From IMG/VR virus record IMGVR_UViG_3300025910_000032, positions 1 through 25,136 of that record: a DNA stretch of 25,136 nt. One strand, given 5' to 3'. The translations under genes were made by a program, and so were the position numbers. The first letter of the stretch is position 1, and each line of letters starts with the position of its first letter. Below the pieces are notes generated by a model. That model was not told the DNA's origin and did not search any database. It saw only the letters and a program-made list of their open reading frames with translations. This document shows positions 2,989-18,995 of this stretch, piece after piece. Source of the DNA: a virus.

Positions 2989-3511
2989 TTGCCGCCTTGG
3001 CCCTGCGCCGGCGCGCGCGGGCACTCGCCTTGCCGGCCTTGCGCTGGTGTCTTTTGCGTTGCGACTCGGTCATCACCGCAAACCGCTTTTTGCCTAATTC
3101 GCGGGCCTTTTTCTTCGTAAACAGCCAGGTCGGACGCGTGGAACCAGCCATCGCTGGTTGACGAGGCCTTTTCCGCGCCGAAAGCTGGTCTTTGAGCGGT
3201 GCAAATCGCTCGTCGTCGACCACCAGCACCAGGGCGAGACCAGTGCCCTTGAGCATCTTGCCGAGGCTTTCCCACCCGAACGTGCGCCGTGCGCTCGCCA
3301 TGCGGTGGTTGCGGTGCTTGTGCGACGGCTTGCCCGGGTTCTTGGTGAGCAGCTTCTGCGCGTTGCCTTTCGCGAGTTCGCCGGCCATCTCGATCTGCTC
3401 GAGCGTGGTGTTCAAATCGTCGATGCGGTCCATGAACCCGTCCTGCAGCGCCTCGTAATCGAGGATCACGCGATAGAGCTCGTAGTCCTGCGAGCGAATC
3501 GGCGCGGTCAT
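2924..3511 (-). CDS. Very basic protein of unknown function, last gene of the leftward operon
   Basis: A 195-residue protein. The N-terminal ~50 residues (LDYEALQDGFMDRIDDLNTT and onward) look like a coiled coil. A central segment (TFGWESLGKMLKGTGLALVL) precedes a lysine/arginine-rich C-terminus (KRHQRKAGKASARARRRRAK), suggesting nucleic-acid binding. Start ATG at 3511 shares ATGA with the preceding gene. The C-terminal end overlaps the convergent zinc-ribbon gene by 65 bases, so the last ~20 residues may be poorly conserved. Function not recognised. Confidence 0.65.
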   Translation of the reverse strand: MTAPIRSQDYELYRVILDYEALQDGFMDRIDDLNTTLEQIEMAGELAKGNAQKLLTKNPGKPSHKHRNHRMASARRTFGWESLGKMLKGTGLALVLVVDDERFAPLKDQLSARKRPRQPAMAGSTRPTWLFTKKKARELGKKRFAVMTESQRKRHQRKAGKASARARRRRAKAATISATVDGCISSKSNSMLAAS

Positions 3512-3758: not shown

Positions 3759-4531
3759 TCCGCGGCCTCCCGTGCGCCCTGGTCGGCGGGCATGGTTGGA
3801 ATCGGCGCCTGTGCTGGCTTGTCCGGCTCGCTGCCGAGTTTCACGGCTTCGGCAAATGTGAGTTTTGACGCCTCGCCCTTGCCGATCGCGCGCATCAGGC
3901 CAACCATGGCCGCGCGTCCGTCTACGAGCTGCGGCGCGCAATCGACGAATTCCCGCGCGTCAAGCAACCGCTGTAGCTTGCCGATTCGGCCGGTCATCTC
4001 GTAGGTCTGCCGCAGTGCGATCTTGCGTAGCGTGCCAGGGTCAGGCGCCCATATGTAATCGTGCGGCTTACCCTTCTCGTCGGTGCCGCAATCGTGCCGG
4101 AACCACAACTTTGCCGCGGCATCCACAGCCCAGCACGGCACATCGTCGAGCACTTCGAGATAGACGTCGGCGCGCGCGCCCTCCGCCAAATCTGATTTCC
4201 GCTCGCCGGCGAGCACCGTGAGCAGTTTTGACACCACCGTCGCGGTGACGGTCTCGGCCTCGACGCTTTCAGCGGGTGTTTGCCGCAGGTAGGAGCGTAA
4301 GTTGTCGACGTGGCTCCGCATCTCCTCCCGCTGCGCTTGGCTCGGCATCAGTTCCGCCGGCAGGACCAGCACCTCGCCCCTCTCGAACTCCCGCGTCCCC
4401 GGTTTCAGTTGCACCTCGAGCCGCACGGCGGCGGTCGAGCGCGCCACCCATTGCGGCAATGATGGTAGCGTCGCGGGTCGGCGGGGATCCGGAAGCTTGA
4501 GCGGCTCGTGTTTGACCAGTTCGGTTGCCAT
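3755..4531 (-). CDS. Conserved-looking early phage protein, function unknown
   Basis: A 258-residue soluble protein. A proline-rich N-terminus (residues 1-30) leads to a mixed region and a central helical domain (QREEMRSHVDNLRSYL ... VVSKLLTVLAG), with a later segment DVYLEVLDDVPCWAVDAAAK and GRIGKLQRLLD. The spacing of short helices resembles proteins that follow phage replication-initiator genes, but I cannot name a family. The ATG has AAGGA eight bases upstream. The first 263 bases overlap the end of the replication gene in another frame, an unusually long same-strand overlap. It ends with ATGA coupling to a miniprotein gene. Confidence 0.7.
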   Translation of the reverse strand: MATELVKHEPLKLPDPRRPATLPSLPQWVARSTAAVRLEVQLKPGTREFERGEVLVLPAELMPSQAQREEMRSHVDNLRSYLRQTPAESVEAETVTATVVSKLLTVLAGERKSDLAEGARADVYLEVLDDVPCWAVDAAAKLWFRHDCGTDEKGKPHDYIWAPDPGTLRKIALRQTYEMTGRIGKLQRLLDAREFVDCAPQLVDGRAAMVGLMRAIGKGEASKLTFAEAVKLGSEPDKPAQAPIPTMPADQGAREAAE

Positions 4532-5042
4532 TTCGAGAATCCTTCACCCAGGTGCCCATGAACGCGGCATCCCAGTTTGCTTTGGTGGTCACTGATCGAT
4601 TTGCGTTGGCGTCGCACCATTCGCGCATCCGTACGGCGCGATCGTCGACATCGGCAGGGCTCATCCCGAGTTTTGCAGCCTCGTCGTAGTGCTTCTGATT
4701 TGGTTTCCAGTCGGGTGGAAGTTTGTGGCCGCGCTCTTTCTTTTCTTTCTTATTAACTACCTCTGAATGCTTCTTATCTTCCCTTAAGAAAGAAAGAGCA
4801 TTATCGCCGACATCGGGTGGTGTCGGGTGGATGTCAGGTTGATCGGGTGGATGTTCGCGCTTGCGTCTCCGGTATTCCCGGTCCCAAGTGCGCCGCTTTT
4901 CCGCCGTTTCGTCCACTCCATGTCGGGTGGATACCGCACGCTCCATGGAGCGAACGGCGACGATGATCATCTCCAGCGGAATGCAGTTTTTCAGCATCTC
5001 CGTGATCATGTCTGCGATCGGGGTTGGGTTGGGTTTGGTCAT
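4269..5042 (-). CDS. Phage replication protein, helicase-loader/DnaT-like
   Basis: A 257-residue protein. An N-terminal segment with EKRRTWDREYRRRKRE is followed by a proline-rich linker (~residues 62-80). A domain then reads LPPDWKPNQKHYDEAAKLGM ... VTTKANWDAAFMGTWVKD (~residues 108-168), the W/F-rich pattern of DnaT-like or phage replication-organiser C-terminal domains that load helicase. A low-complexity tail follows. Start shares ATGA with the nuclease gene upstream. The linker is encoded by iteron-like repeats and the next part by an AT-rich block, reminiscent of lambda O with its internal origin. The last 263 bases are also the start of the next gene, so the tail (after ~residue 170) is dual-coded. 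Confidence 0.72.
   Translation of the reverse strand: MTKPNPTPIADMITEMLKNCIPLEMIIVAVRSMERAVSTRHGVDETAEKRRTWDREYRRRKREHPPDQPDIHPTPPDVGDNALSFLREDKKHSEVVNKKEKKERGHKLPPDWKPNQKHYDEAAKLGMSPADVDDRAVRMREWCDANANRSVTTKANWDAAFMGTWVKDSRNGNRTGQTRAAQASGSPPTRDATIIAAMGGALDRRRAARGATETGDAGVREGRGAGPAGGTDAEPSAAGGDAEPRRQLTLLPAANTR
4711..4930. other. Candidate replication origin inside the replication gene
   Basis: TCGGGTGG occurs exactly at 4711, 4813, 4823, 4843 and 4923, with a degenerate copy TCAGGTTG at 4834. The four central copies are spaced 9-11 bases apart, about one helical turn. Beside them, 4741-4800 is strikingly AT-rich for this genome and flanked by an 11-base perfect inverted repeat, GCTCTTTCTTT (4733-4743) and its complement (4789-4799). 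Iterons plus an easily melted block within an initiator gene is the classical lambdoid origin layout. Origin function is inferred. Confidence 0.6.
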
Positions 5043-5566
5043 GCTGATGCGCGATGCTCCGGCGGCACCATGCGATCATTTACAAACTGCATGACGTGTC
5101 TGGCGCAGTCGAATGGATCCTTGAATATCTCCGAGCCAGTGAAGCGCAGCACCGGATGGCCGGCGGCCTGCATCTTGCGGTCACGCTGCTTGTCCCGCGC
5201 GGCCTGGGCCTTGGTTCGCTCATGGTAATCGTGACCGTCACACTCGATAAAAGTGAGAAGGTCGCCGTCGCGATAAACCCAGTCGACGCGGTATTCTTCA
5301 AATTTGTACTGCGGGATGAGAAGCCTGGATTCGCGCGGCCAGTGAGGAAGTTCATGCTGCCCGGCCAATACCAAAGTAAAGCCTGGCATCCCATCGAACC
5401 GCTCAAGAAATAGCAGCGCAGCACCGAGCATCACTTCGATAGGGCTTTCGCACAGTCGGGAGAGCTTGCTATCGATCAGGTGATAGAACCACGCATCGAC
5501 AAAGGCCTGCTCGTCGAGCCTTTCCACAATTTGGATTGATAGTTTTGTCACGTCGATTCCGCTCAT
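5039..5566 (-). CDS. DUF559/Vsr-like PD-(D/E)XK endonuclease
   Basis: A 175-residue protein. CESPIEVML at residues 39-47 supplies a conserved glutamate, YRVDWVY gives D95, and LLTFIECDGHDYHE gives E108 with the EC-D-G-H pattern. KDKQRD-like and RFTGSEIF segments follow. This is the core of the DUF559/very-short-patch-like restriction-fold nucleases. Start chosen at the ATG preceded by GAGGGTGGG, which also shares ATGA with a possible 11-residue miniORF. Position in the replication operon suggests a role in DNA processing, repair or attack on host DNA. The exact substrate is unknown. Confidence 0.75.
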   Translation of the reverse strand: MSGIDVTKLSIQIVERLDEQAFVDAWFYHLIDSKLSRLCESPIEVMLGAALLFLERFDGMPGFTLVLAGQHELPHWPRESRLLIPQYKFEEYRVDWVYRDGDLLTFIECDGHDYHERTKAQAARDKQRDRKMQAAGHPVLRFTGSEIFKDPFDCARHVMQFVNDRMVPPEHRASA

Positions 5567-7834: not shown

Positions 7835-8527
7835 ATGGGCACGCTTATTCGGTTTCCCCGACGACTTCATGCGCGTGCCTCTTCAGCCACAGGGATAGCT
7901 TCCAGCTTCCGCGCTGCCAACTCAGCCAAAACTTCGAGGGTGATGTCAGGCCTGCCGCGTTCGGCAGCCAATGCCACCACGGCCGCCCAGTGTGGCGCCG
8001 GGATGCCGCGCTTGCGCCAGCCGGACACGACGGACAGCAATTGCCCAAGCGCACCGGCGACCTCGCCAAGTGCACCTGGAGGCGGTGGTGAACCACCGCA
8101 AAGGTCGTCGATGAGTGAATCCCAAGTTGCCATGGGCGCGAACATAGTTTGCATGGTGCAAACCTGTCAAGAGTTTGCAACTCGCAAAACGACATTTTCC
8201 GCAGAATGTGGTGCCATTGGTTCCATGATGGACCCGCCACACCTCGTTTCTGCGCGCCTGAAGGCACTCAGGCAGGAACTCGGCTTTAAGAGCCAAGCCG
8301 CGTTCGCCGAGCGGCTGGGAATTGACAAGAGCACCTATAATCCATTCGAAACAGGCGCTCGGCCACTGACTTTCGAGACTGCCTGCCTGATCCGGCGCGA
8401 ATTCGGCATATCGATCGACTGGCTGTTCTTCGGCGATTTGCAGCAGGGCGCCATCCAGACCATGGCAAAGATCGGTCGCGGTACCGGCGCACCGCCGCCC
8501 AAAGTTCGCAAAACGGCCAATAAATAA
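7835..8527 (+). CDS. Possible long form of the XRE regulator, antisense to the leftward HTH gene
   Basis: The frame of the XRE protein stays open back to an ATG at 7835, giving 230 residues. That ATG has GAGGG six bases upstream, a better ribosome site than the internal start at 8225. The N-terminus MGTLIRFPRRLHARAS matches a pattern I recall from Bradyrhizobium-type ORFs that end in an XRE domain. Residues ~12-100 lie antisense to the leftward HTH gene and look like low-complexity shadow sequence. The two proteins may therefore share a C-terminal XRE domain, or the long form may be chance. Confidence 0.35.
   Translation: MGTLIRFPRRLHARASSATGIASSFRAANSAKTSRVMSGLPRSAANATTAAQCGAGMPRLRQPDTTDSNCPSAPATSPSAPGGGGEPPQRSSMSESQVAMGANIVCMVQTCQEFATRKTTFSAECGAIGSMMDPPHLVSARLKALRQELGFKSQAAFAERLGIDKSTYNPFETGARPLTFETACLIRREFGISIDWLFFGDLQQGAIQTMAKIGRGTGAPPPKVRKTANK
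7867..8133 (-). CDS. Leftward Cro/YdaS-like helix-turn-helix regulator
   Basis: An 88-residue protein. Residues ~28-60 (ALGEVAGALGQLLSVVSGWR then KRGIPAPHWAAVVALA) show the compact HTH of YdaS/Cro or carph-isopro-type regulators. The ATG at 8133 was chosen over those at 8145 and 8154 because a strong promoter (-35 TTGACA 8170-8165, -10 CTATGT 8147-8142) would start RNA near 8135. The upstream ATGs would thus not be transcribed, and the message is nearly leaderless. It is divergent to the XRE gene with operators 1 and 2 between, forming the probable lysis-lysogeny switch. Confidence 0.75.
   Translation of the reverse strand: MATWDSLIDDLCGGSPPPPGALGEVAGALGQLLSVVSGWRKRGIPAPHWAAVVALAAERGRPDITLEVLAELAARKLEAIPVAEEARA
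8141..8170 (-). promoter_or_regulatory. Leftward promoter with operator 1 in its spacer
   Basis: On the leftward strand a consensus -35 TTGACA (8170-8165) is followed after exactly 17 bases by CTATGT (8147-8142), or TATGTT one base further. The 17-base spacer is filled by operator site 1. A repressor bound there would directly block polymerase. The predicted start, near 8135, coincides with the start codon of the leftward HTH gene. Confidence 0.7.
8148..8162. promoter_or_regulatory. Operator site 1
   Basis: TTTGC-ATGGT-GCAAA, extending to the perfect 17-base form GTTTGCA-N3-TGCAAAC. It lies within the -35/-10 spacer of the leftward promoter. Three further copies lie at 8174, 8530 and 8561. 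The likely ligand is the XRE regulator or the leftward HTH protein. Confidence 0.75.
8174..8188. promoter_or_regulatory. Operator site 2
   Basis: TTTGC-AACTC-GCAAA, a weaker copy (two mismatches in the extended 17-base consensus). Its centre is 26 bases from that of site 1. It lies just upstream of the leftward -35 and upstream of the XRE gene's short-form start, so it may affect both directions. Confidence 0.7.
8225..8527 (+). CDS. XRE-family helix-turn-helix repressor
   Basis: A 100-residue protein whose residues ~7-70 form a classic XRE/lambda-repressor domain. LVSARLKALRQELGFKSQAA gives helices 1-2, FAERLGIDKSTYNPFETGAR the recognition helix and loop, and the end GISIDWLFFGD is the common helix-5 motif. 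There is no LexA-like peptidase part, so it resembles the small repressors of P2-like phages. No clear ribosome site precedes the ATG at 8225; 8228 is an alternative. The same frame extends upstream to 7835. Two operator copies lie on each side of the gene, suggesting it controls both arms. Confidence 0.82.
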   Translation: MMDPPHLVSARLKALRQELGFKSQAAFAERLGIDKSTYNPFETGARPLTFETACLIRREFGISIDWLFFGDLQQGAIQTMAKIGRGTGAPPPKVRKTANK

Positions 8528-14644: not shown

Positions 14645-14909
14645 ACCGCCGGTCAAGCTTTCGGAGAGCAAACAAGTTCAGTCACTCCAAGCTGAACTAT
14701 TCCGAACGACTGAGCCCTTGCAGGGCGACGCATGGATAAGCGACGAGGCCGGCACAGAAACCCTCGCTGAGTTTTTCCAGTTTGTTGAGGGCCACTTAGC
14801 GGCCAACCGCGAAGCAACAAAAGCAATAACCGCTTTCCTTCGCAAGCACCGTCAGCTTCGGCGGGCTTCCTCGATTCCCTCCACTCTGCGCGAGACCCCG
14901 GAGGGATGA
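14637..14909 (+). CDS. Hypothetical helical protein (GTG start)
   Basis: A 90-residue protein beginning VKPPVKLSESKQVQSLQAEL, with a helical C-terminal half (FFQFVEGHLAANREATKAIT). The GTG at 14637 overlaps the end of the Lar-like gene and has GAGG six bases upstream, so it is preferred. It ends in overlap with the next gene. No family is recognised. Confidence 0.58.
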   Translation: MVKPPVKLSESKQVQSLQAELFRTTEPLQGDAWISDEAGTETLAEFFQFVEGHLAANREATKAITAFLRKHRQLRRASSIPSTLRETPEG

Positions 14910-15580
14910 CCTTGCACTACCACGGCACACCGATAACGCCACTGACAGCTCTCTACGAGATGACCGGGCGGCATTTCTGCGTATCCCACGCTCACCCGGC
15001 GGACGTGGCTCGATGCCACCAGATCGGGCAGTCCGTGCTTTTGGACAACGGCGCGTTCTCAAAGTGGAAGTCAAAGAAGGAAACCAATTGGTCGAGCTAT
15101 TACGACTGGGCCGAGCGGTGGCTTTCCTACCCTACGACATGGGCAATCATCCCCGACGAGATCGACGCCGGTTCGCAGTTTCAGGATGCGTTAGTGCGTG
15201 AGTGGCCGTTTGGGCATCGCGGCGCCCCGGTGTGGCACATGGACGAGCCAATAGACCGCCTCGCTAAACTTACCGACGAGTGGCCCAAGGTCTGCATCGG
15301 GTCAACAGATGCCTACTCCGTCGTCCTCTCCCCCGCATGGGAGCGGAAGATGGACGAGGCATTTAACCGGATCGCCCGCAACCATCTCCCTTGGATACAT
15401 ATGCTGCGGGGGATGCAGTGTCTTGGCCGGCGATGGCCCTTTGCATCGGTCGATAGCACCGACATAGCCCAGAACCACCACCGACCGCAGAACACGCCCC
15501 GCGCTATGGCTGACCGCTGGGACGCCATGCAGTGCCCAGGCAAATGGGAAATCCAGCCCGAACAAATGGAGTTAGCATGA
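14906..15580 (+). CDS. TGT-like (DpdA-type?) transglycosylase-fold protein
   Basis: A 224-residue protein. QSVLLDNGAFSKWK (D47) resembles the D-S-G-G-F motif of tRNA-guanine transglycosylases. PVWHMDEPIDRL, VCIGST and a late PFASVDSTDIAQN (D183) match the barrel strands and second aspartate of a TIM-barrel fold. From memory, phage proteins of this pattern are described as DpdA-like, which insert 7-deazaguanine into DNA, but TGT homology here is my reading and not a search. Length is shorter than bacterial TGT (~370). It is coupled to a deoxyribosyltransferase-like gene. Confidence 0.55.
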   Translation: MTLHYHGTPITPLTALYEMTGRHFCVSHAHPADVARCHQIGQSVLLDNGAFSKWKSKKETNWSSYYDWAERWLSYPTTWAIIPDEIDAGSQFQDALVREWPFGHRGAPVWHMDEPIDRLAKLTDEWPKVCIGSTDAYSVVLSPAWERKMDEAFNRIARNHLPWIHMLRGMQCLGRRWPFASVDSTDIAQNHHRPQNTPRAMADRWDAMQCPGKWEIQPEQMELA

Positions 15581-17446: not shown

Positions 17447-17703
17447 CCGCACCGGCCTCACAGACGCTAGAACGCGAGAGGGACAAGCTATACCTTACGG
17501 ACGCAGAGTTGATCCGGCGCATTGGCGTGCCGGAAAAGACGCTGCGGTCCATGCTGCCGGCCCTGGAGAGCAAATACGGTTTTCCCCGGAAGTCGCCGAT
17601 ATTCGGGGATAGAAGGTATTGGCCGGCCGTGAAAACGTGGCTGGACAAGCACAACGGGCTTACAGTGGACCCCACCACCACAAACGGAAAGGGGTTGCGA
17701 TGA
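17443..17703 (+). CDS. xis: Putative excisionase (winged-helix type)
   Basis: An 86-residue protein. DKLYLTDAELIRRIGVPEKT then LRSMLPALESKYGFPRKSPI ... RRYWPAVKTWLDKH reads as an excisionase/MerR-like winged HTH: helix-turn-helix followed by a wing. It directly precedes the integrase and overlaps it by four bases. By position and fold it would direct excision as the recombination directionality factor. The family DUF4224 is a possible relative. Confidence 0.68.
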   Translation: MTAPASQTLERERDKLYLTDAELIRRIGVPEKTLRSMLPALESKYGFPRKSPIFGDRRYWPAVKTWLDKHNGLTVDPTTTNGKGLR

Positions 17704-18995
17704 CGGATGAAAAACAGCCACCAAAAATGGCTCAGGAAGCGCCGGGCTTAGTCTGGCGGTCACGAAAGAACGGATGGGCCGCGACGTGGCAGGCCCGCAG
17801 CGACCTCGCTAGGCGAGGATATTTGCCCAAGAGCGTCACGCTTTGGTCAGGCGCCGAGCCAGACGCAACCGACGCCCTGCACATCGCCACGCGATGCCAG
17901 CAGTATCAATCCGAAATGCTTATGTGGGGTCGCGGCGTTGAACCGATTCCGCTCAATGGTTTTAGAGGCGATCTGCGATCGCTCATTAATTGCTATCAGA
18001 CCGACGCGGACTCGCCCTACCAAAAGAACCGCTTCCACACCCGCCAAAACCGCGACAGCATGTTGCGACGGATCAGTAAGCGGCACGGCCACGAACAACT
18101 TTCGGATATCAAAGCCCGCGTCCTACTGGCTTGGCACAAAGACTGGAGCGTAGACGGCCAAAGGCTCGCGACCGGATCTGCGTTCATCGGGCAACTCCGC
18201 GCCCTTTTCAGCTTCGGCGCCACGCTACTTGAAAATTCCGACTGCGAGCGGCTATGTGGGGTGATGCACAAGATGCGCTTCCCAGGAACGAAACCGCGCG
18301 GCGTGAGCCTGTCAGCCGAGCAAGCCAACTTGATCCGGGCTGCGGCTCATGATCACTTCGGATGGGATTCCATCGCCCTTGTGCAGGCTTTCCAGTTTGA
18401 ATGCACGCTGCGGCAGGGCGATTGCATCGGGCAATTGGTGCCGCTATCGGAACCTGGCGTGTCCGCCGTTATCGTCCGCGGCCAGAAATGGCTGCGCGGC
18501 ATCGTCTGGCAGGAGATCGACGACAACCTGATCCTTCGGCACATCACCAGCAAAAAGCAAAAGATGGTCGAGGTGGATCTGAAGCTCGGGCCGATGGTGG
18601 TTTCGGAGCTGCAATGGCTGGCCGGCGACGAGCCCCTGATCGTGGTAGACGAGATCACGAAGAAGGTGACAGTCAATCGTCACCTTCTGCCGGCCTCCGG
18701 GCCGCTTGCAATTTGCGACACCAACGGCCTGCCTTGGACGGGCAACGAGTACCGCCGTAAGTGGCGCAAGATCGCGCGGCATTGCGGGATACCCGACAAT
18801 GTTTGGAGCATGGATTCGAGATCTGGGGCTATCTCTGAGGCGATCCAGGCCGGCGCACCAATCGAGTTTGTCCGCCACGCGGCGACCCATAGCGACGTTT
18901 CGCAGACCGCGGACTACGACCGAACGCAGGCCGAGGCCACGGCGAAGGTGATGAAGCTGCGGACGGCGAACAGGAACAAACCCAAAACCGAGTGA
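17700..18995 (+). CDS. int: Tyrosine integrase
   Basis: A 431-residue protein. The C-terminal catalytic domain shows ECTLRQGD (R239), a lysine-rich beta turn (HITSKKQKMVEV, ~K286), WSMDSRSGAISEA (R374), ATHSDV (H397) and ADYDRT (Y406 nucleophile). The box II position normally held by His (H-x-x-R) is Met371, a substitution I have seen in related alphaproteobacterial integrases. The N-terminal ~180 residues include an arm/core-binding region. AAGGGG lies five bases before the ATG. It integrates the phage at an attP, likely in the palindrome that follows. Confidence 0.88.
   Translation: MTDEKQPPKMAQEAPGLVWRSRKNGWAATWQARSDLARRGYLPKSVTLWSGAEPDATDALHIATRCQQYQSEMLMWGRGVEPIPLNGFRGDLRSLINCYQTDADSPYQKNRFHTRQNRDSMLRRISKRHGHEQLSDIKARVLLAWHKDWSVDGQRLATGSAFIGQLRALFSFGATLLENSDCERLCGVMHKMRFPGTKPRGVSLSAEQANLIRAAAHDHFGWDSIALVQAFQFECTLRQGDCIGQLVPLSEPGVSAVIVRGQKWLRGIVWQEIDDNLILRHITSKKQKMVEVDLKLGPMVVSELQWLAGDEPLIVVDEITKKVTVNRHLLPASGPLAICDTNGLPWTGNEYRRKWRKIARHCGIPDNVWSMDSRSGAISEAIQAGAPIEFVRHAATHSDVSQTADYDRTQAEATAKVMKLRTANRNKPKTE

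Follow-up and report, generated by a model that had tools for sequence, protein, structure and literature searches.

Iterons conserved across reading frames in a phage initiator gene suggest an embedded replication origin whose repeat type follows a basic helix of the initiator

In the virus record analysed here (a complete IMG/VR virus record of 25,136 bases, hereafter the window), copies of a short repeat lie around an AT-rich tract inside a replication gene on the minus strand. Do they form an origin embedded in that gene, as the original prediction supposed, or are they there for the protein, for control of the gene or for some other binding factor? Our comparisons indicate that the segment 4711-4931 is very probably a phage replication origin embedded in the gene of its own initiator. 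This reading fits best, as the repeats are kept as DNA in whatever reading frame they lie, change together in relatives, adjoin the AT-richest tract of the record and are nearly confined to the gene.

The prediction had listed five exact copies of TCGGGTGG, and all five were found on the plus strand, at 4711, 4813, 4823, 4843 and 4923; the degenerate copy reported at 4834 is also present (TCAGGTTG, two mismatches). The central four copies are spaced by 10, 11 and 9 bp, which agrees with the proposed period of about 10 bases. As the gene lies on the minus strand, the coding-strand unit is CCACCCGA. The full 9-bp unit on that strand, TCCACCCGA, is complete in four of the five copies, and these four are the only occurrences of that 9-mer in the entire record. 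The 8-mer TCGGGTGG occurs six times in the record, five of them inside a 220-bp stretch of the initiator gene, while dinucleotide shuffles gave a mean of 0.98 copies and none of 100 reached six. Among the 8-mers of the window its clustering is the strongest, with five copies in 220 bp against a maximum of three for unrelated 8-mers. The search over the full record returned just one copy outside the cluster, at 3272-3279 on the minus strand, which is probably there by chance. The linker of the encoded protein is proline-rich, and the central four copies had been assigned to it; the copies at 4711 and 4923 are located outside. The coordinates of all features are collected in Table 1.

Table 1. 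Features of the putative embedded origin and of the genes that carry or overlap it (window coordinates)
Feature	Position	Strand	Remarks
Initiator gene P0001	4269..5042	-	257 aa; HTH-like N-terminus, basic helix, disordered linker (presumed), DnaT-like C-terminal domain (probable), variable tail
HTH-like N-terminal segment of P0001, residues 7-38	codons 4929..5024	-	helices 8-18 and 23-38, mostly high pLDDT
Basic helix EKRRTWDREYRRRKRE of P0001, residues 48-63	codons 4854..4901	-	proposed iteron-reading element
DnaT-like C-terminal domain of P0001 (probable), residues 106-177	codons 4512..4727	-	
Iteron 1, TCCACCCGA	4923..4931	-	read Ser-Thr-Arg, frame 0
Iteron 2, TCCACCCGA	4843..4851	-	read (His)-Pro-Pro-Asp
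Degenerate iteron, CAACCTGA	4834..4841	-	2 mismatches
Iteron 3, TCCACCCGA	4823..4831	-	read Ile-His-Pro
Iteron 4, CCACCCGA	4813..4820	-	A before it; read Pro-Pro-Asp
Iteron 5, TCCACCCGA	4711..4719	-	beyond AT-rich tract; read Leu-Pro-Pro-Asp
AT-rich tract	4735..4794	.	presumed unwinding element; 70% AT
Inverted repeat, left arm	4733..4743	.	11 bp, perfect; not conserved in L007, L009
Inverted repeat, right arm	4789..4799	.	11 bp, perfect
Downstream ORF P0003	3755..4531	-	overlaps initiator gene by 263 nt (4269-4531), different frame

The AT-rich tract of about 60 bases noticed next to the repeats proved to have the highest AT content of any 60-mer in the record (70%, against a mean of 41%), and every homologue checked was AT-rich at the corresponding place. 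The 11-base inverted repeat said to flank it is perfect in both arms, and only one other place in the record holds a perfect 11-bp pair equally close. As a conserved element the inverted repeat was rejected: it measures 10 bp in the homologue L008, is absent from L007 and L009 and is at best short in the more distant clade B described below, so it is probably no essential part. GC skew, suggested as a check, showed no clear turning point at 4.8 kb and was uninformative.

The gene product had been described as helicase-loader-like, a role that an initiator replaces with a better fit: in a profile search residues 64-182 of P0001 matched phrog_1408, 'replication initiation protein' (E 1.1e-6), a profile matched by 11 of 14 members, and we consider the assignment to PHROG families of replication initiation and primosomal proteins sound. 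The structure model consists of N-terminal helices (8-18 and 23-38) followed by a basic helix (45-63), a low-confidence linker and a helical C-terminal domain; the linker, where the iteron cluster is located, is presumably disordered. The C-terminus is probably DnaT-like, although the resemblance is weak. A Pfam scan at E<=0.1 returned a weak DnaT match and nothing else, including no match to the lambda O family model; PF17948 (DnaT C-terminal, ssDNA-binding) scored 13.4 bits, below its curated cut-off of 25, hhalign of the C-terminal region against DnaT gave 50%, and the fold match to the DnaT C-terminal domain 2ru8 was weak (Z 3.9 over 67 residues). No close homologue of P0001 was found among cultured phages, plasmids and reference genomes, nor by a broader-alignment scan of the reference genomes. 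A PDB sequence search with P0001 gave no match, a viral fold library gave no significant match to the model, and Foldseek with the whole model returned nothing significant, the DnaT C-terminal domain appearing as a weak row.

Long overlaps of the initiator gene with its downstream ORF are also present in L008, L009 and L014; in L007 and L010 the overlapping place is occupied by an unrelated gene. By its position, P0003 is a candidate helicase loader, as in lambda and SPP1, and its sequence pattern suggested the same function, which none of the tests confirmed; it had no Pfam match and no informative fold match when G39P and lambda P loaders were sought. The gene directly upstream of the initiator (5039-5566) matches MTES_1575/DUF559 nuclease-like families. 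Further along the record, an integrase-like gene (17619-18995) and a CI-like repressor gene (7835-8527) suggest a temperate phage. The ORF at 13745-14644 matches Lar-like restriction alleviation proteins (phrog_599, E 1e-7), and 14906-15580 encodes a queuine tRNA-ribosyltransferase-like protein (phrog_887, E 1e-45) that is possibly linked to DNA base modification.

Three IMG/VR homologues, L007-L009, 65-74% identical across the whole alignment, bear the TCCACCCGA unit at sites matching those of the window. In these four genes the unit is read in three frames, as Ser-Thr-Arg, Pro-Pro-Asp and Ile-His-Pro. When only amino acids invariant in all four proteins were counted, codons were identical at 12 of 12 positions within iterons and at 35 of 89 elsewhere (Fisher P=4e-5). 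Off-frame 8-mer repeat pairs numbered 21, compared with a mean of 2.4 and a maximum of 13 under a protein-preserving null in which synonymous codons were shuffled and the protein was kept (P<=0.003). One iteron is displaced by 9 bases between the homologues, with copy number nearly kept. Three reading frames, frozen codons and an excess over protein-preserving shuffles thus establish that the TCCACCCGA repeats are selected as DNA, not as protein. A linker rich in prolines might be thought to generate such repeats as the by-product of a repetitive sequence selected as protein, but a single 9-mer giving STR, PPD and IHP, the failure of the shuffles to reproduce the repeats, full codon invariance inside the window-clade iterons and not elsewhere, and the 9-base shift leave a repetitive protein as no explanation; we find this account hardly credible.

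Clade B (L010, L014, L015 and L190-L195), 31-38% identical to P0001, carries the unit TCCACCGGA, one base off TCCACCCGA, in 5-8 copies per gene at matching sites, and this unit is rare in the clade B records outside the gene. Three copies in L014, 10 bp apart, pass through frames 0, 1 and 2, and codons across the clade are identical at 12 of 13 positions in iterons compared with 33 of 88 elsewhere (P=2e-4). More distant members have TCCGCAGA (L011) or CGTCACGAC (L012) in the same region. Between clades, the iterons change as a set.

A wider sample was drawn from 120 IMG/VR stretches picked solely by the C-terminal motif GVKLDWxATWRNW, and 102 distinct ORFs from them were tested. Off-frame repeats (P<=0.01) were present in 47 of these and in 3 of 131 control ORFs that those contigs supplied (Fisher P=4e-17), bearing in mind that some linkers are low in complexity and that not every repeat-bearing linker need therefore be an origin. 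Across these ORFs, repeat coverage was highest in the linker, reaching 18-39% some 130-250 nt ahead of the motif, and stayed at about 3-7% over most of the remaining gene. Two stretches, L224 (543-1115) and L226 (2695-3339), have ATTCCGCA units exactly 10 bp apart in three frames, and the peptide that these units encode includes IPQNSA. Strong off-frame repeats were also seen in the initiator-like genes of two named phages, Burkholderia phage Bcep176 gp11 (L041, 1027-1833; GGAACAGT) and Mycobacterium phage Babsiella gp64 (L039, 892-1830; AGGGGAAC, 8-bp spacing), which possibly hold embedded origins.

Which part of the protein would read the iteron was addressed by searching with the basic helix alone, under no iteron condition, and adding the genes already found. 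The resulting 44 distinct genes vary in their N- and C-terminal domains, and 39 were classifiable, having at least two exact iteron copies and a clear majority. Helix class predicted the iteron in 39 of these 39, counts that come from related sequences rather than independent events and from classes defined after the data were seen. The DRxY helix (EKRRxWDRxYRR) pairs with TCCACCCGA (8/8), the [W/Y]DRxR helix with TCCACCGGA (20/20) and the DRxR helix in which W/Y is replaced by a small or other residue with TCCGCAGA (11/11). Among the five genes left unclassified, allowing one mismatch brings L203, L228 and L233 into line with the rule, gives a mixed result for L199 and leaves L240 against it. 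An independent check in named-phage collections found no phage with these helices. A different helix, AERQRKFRER, is found with GCGTTAC units spaced by about 10 bp in the cultured Rhizobium phage RHph_Y1_10 (L242, 1222-1905; MN988487.1, gene EVB56_056); together with L012 (GTCACG), these two cases hint at a fourth helix-iteron class.

As a predictor of shared iterons, similarity of the helix (AUC 0.90) exceeded that of the C-terminus (0.71) and the N-terminus (0.61), and the helix value was still 0.87 for pairs in which both flanks were dissimilar. L198 has an N-terminus similar to that of P0001 and an unrelated, phrog_270-type C-terminus, and its gene contains six TCCACCGG iterons of the clade B kind in three frames; since clade B iterons are kept despite the unrelated C-terminus, the C-terminus does not set the iteron. 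Similar N-termini accompany different helices and iterons in L205 versus L222, L211 versus L232 and L241, and the window versus L198, and the N-terminus of L237 likewise begins TPIA with an iteron of the third type. The iteron type stays with the helix type when the other domains are swapped, and these data therefore strongly suggest that the basic helix, residues 48-63, reads the iteron. Helix and iterons are mostly close neighbours, so they could also travel as a recombining cassette without direct recognition. Iteron copies on both sides of the helix match its type too, and cassette inheritance would itself suggest that helix and iteron must match. We see about equal chances for and against a further proposal, according to which the helix is portable and obeys a simple rule: a change of one or two residues (DRxR to DRxY, or W/Y to small) would switch between TCCACCGGA, TCCACCCGA and TCCGCAGA, the embedded origin would change to match in any frame, and the flanking domains would be swapped freely.

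Repeats selected as DNA could serve purposes other than replication. Autoregulation is common among initiators, and any sequence-specific binder could maintain such repeats, so that the iterons might be operator-like sites by which a phage protein, the initiator or another, regulates transcription of its own gene, the origin being elsewhere. The sites are, however, located mid-gene around the AT-richest tract and not at a promoter, linker repeats recur widely in replication genes and not in neighbouring ORFs, and the layout is the same as in known embedded origins (PMC7466680, PMC6316719); we therefore judge an operator function unlikely. A host protein in place of the phage initiator might bind the iterons, as host factors do at some origins, but the iteron type tracks a helix of the phage protein itself and a single conserved host factor would leave several iteron types unexplained, which makes this quite improbable. 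The perfect 11-bp arms could indicate that the AT-rich tract and inverted repeat act as an RNA structure or terminator element. RNA folding at this place is ordinary (z -1.3), which led us to reject an RNA structure there, and with the arms lost in L007 and L009 and at best short in clade B such an element is barely plausible.

We thus retain the reading of an embedded origin, in which the activity of the origin is inferred, together with iteron binding, DNA melting and the recruitment of helicase. P0001 molecules would occupy the TCCACCCGA iterons, whose spacing is close to one helical turn; the bound protein would strain the DNA, and the adjacent 60-bp AT-rich tract would melt. The host DnaB helicase could then be brought to the melted tract via the DnaT-like C-terminal domain of P0001, probably with help from the partner encoded by the overlapping downstream gene.

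Embedded origins have so far been known from a handful of model phages, and here sequence alone reveals the arrangement in phage initiators of a large group that has hardly been studied. This also provides a practical means of finding the origins of uncultured phages. The initiators and iterons form a matched set differing at few positions, and a protein-DNA matching rule thereby becomes directly testable. Simple constructs can therefore test how the specificity of an initiator and of the origin in its own gene change jointly, and how phages of the same group avoid or cause cross-interference.

The original prediction drew a parallel with lambdoid phages, which holds for the mode of working and fails for the protein family, P0001 belonging with phrog_1408 and having no lambda O match. 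In lambda and Stx phages the middle of gene O holds an AT-rich tract together with four to six iterons (PMC7466680), so that, as in the window, both elements are within the initiator gene and a replication partner gene, for which P0003 is the candidate in the window, is in the region. The window differs from them in its iterons (about 9 bp, with a spacing of about 10 bp and another sequence), in copies that flank the AT-rich tract on both sides, in relatives of which some have 10-bp units passing through three frames, and in a protein outside the lambda O family in Pfam. In SPP1, oriL is located within gene 38, whose product gp38 is the origin-binding protein, gp39 being the loader, and it likewise combines direct repeats and an AT-rich unwinding element inside the gene (PMC6316719); in the window no second origin was found, and no sequence relation to SPP1 was detected. 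The replication protein gene fhv_0043 of Francisella phage KIRK, beside a G39P-like gene, contains a predicted origin (PMC7924643), a prediction only, as in the window, and in a different protein family (Phg_2220_C). In PICI rep-ori regions two iteron sets flank an AT-rich region, as here, but the origin is 3' of rep and not within it (PMC6092414). The C-terminal region of P0001 also resembles some mycobacteriophage 'RepA-like' proteins; mycobacteriophage RepA origins were rejected as a match, the paper reporting no repeats (PMC7157519) and the RepA proteins that it tested being at most possible members of the P0001 family. Phage replication proteins of phrog_1408 and phrog_3992, such as Bcep176 gp11, are similar to P0001 in the C-terminal region, and the gp11 gene also has strong off-frame repeats; the iterons differ; no published origin for these proteins was found in the open-licence literature. 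With lambda/Stx, SPP1, KIRK and PICI as precedents the arrangement itself was already known, and what appears new, as far as the open-licence literature reached, is this group of initiators, the way in which its short iterons extend over three frames, and an apparent connection of one helix with iteron sequence.
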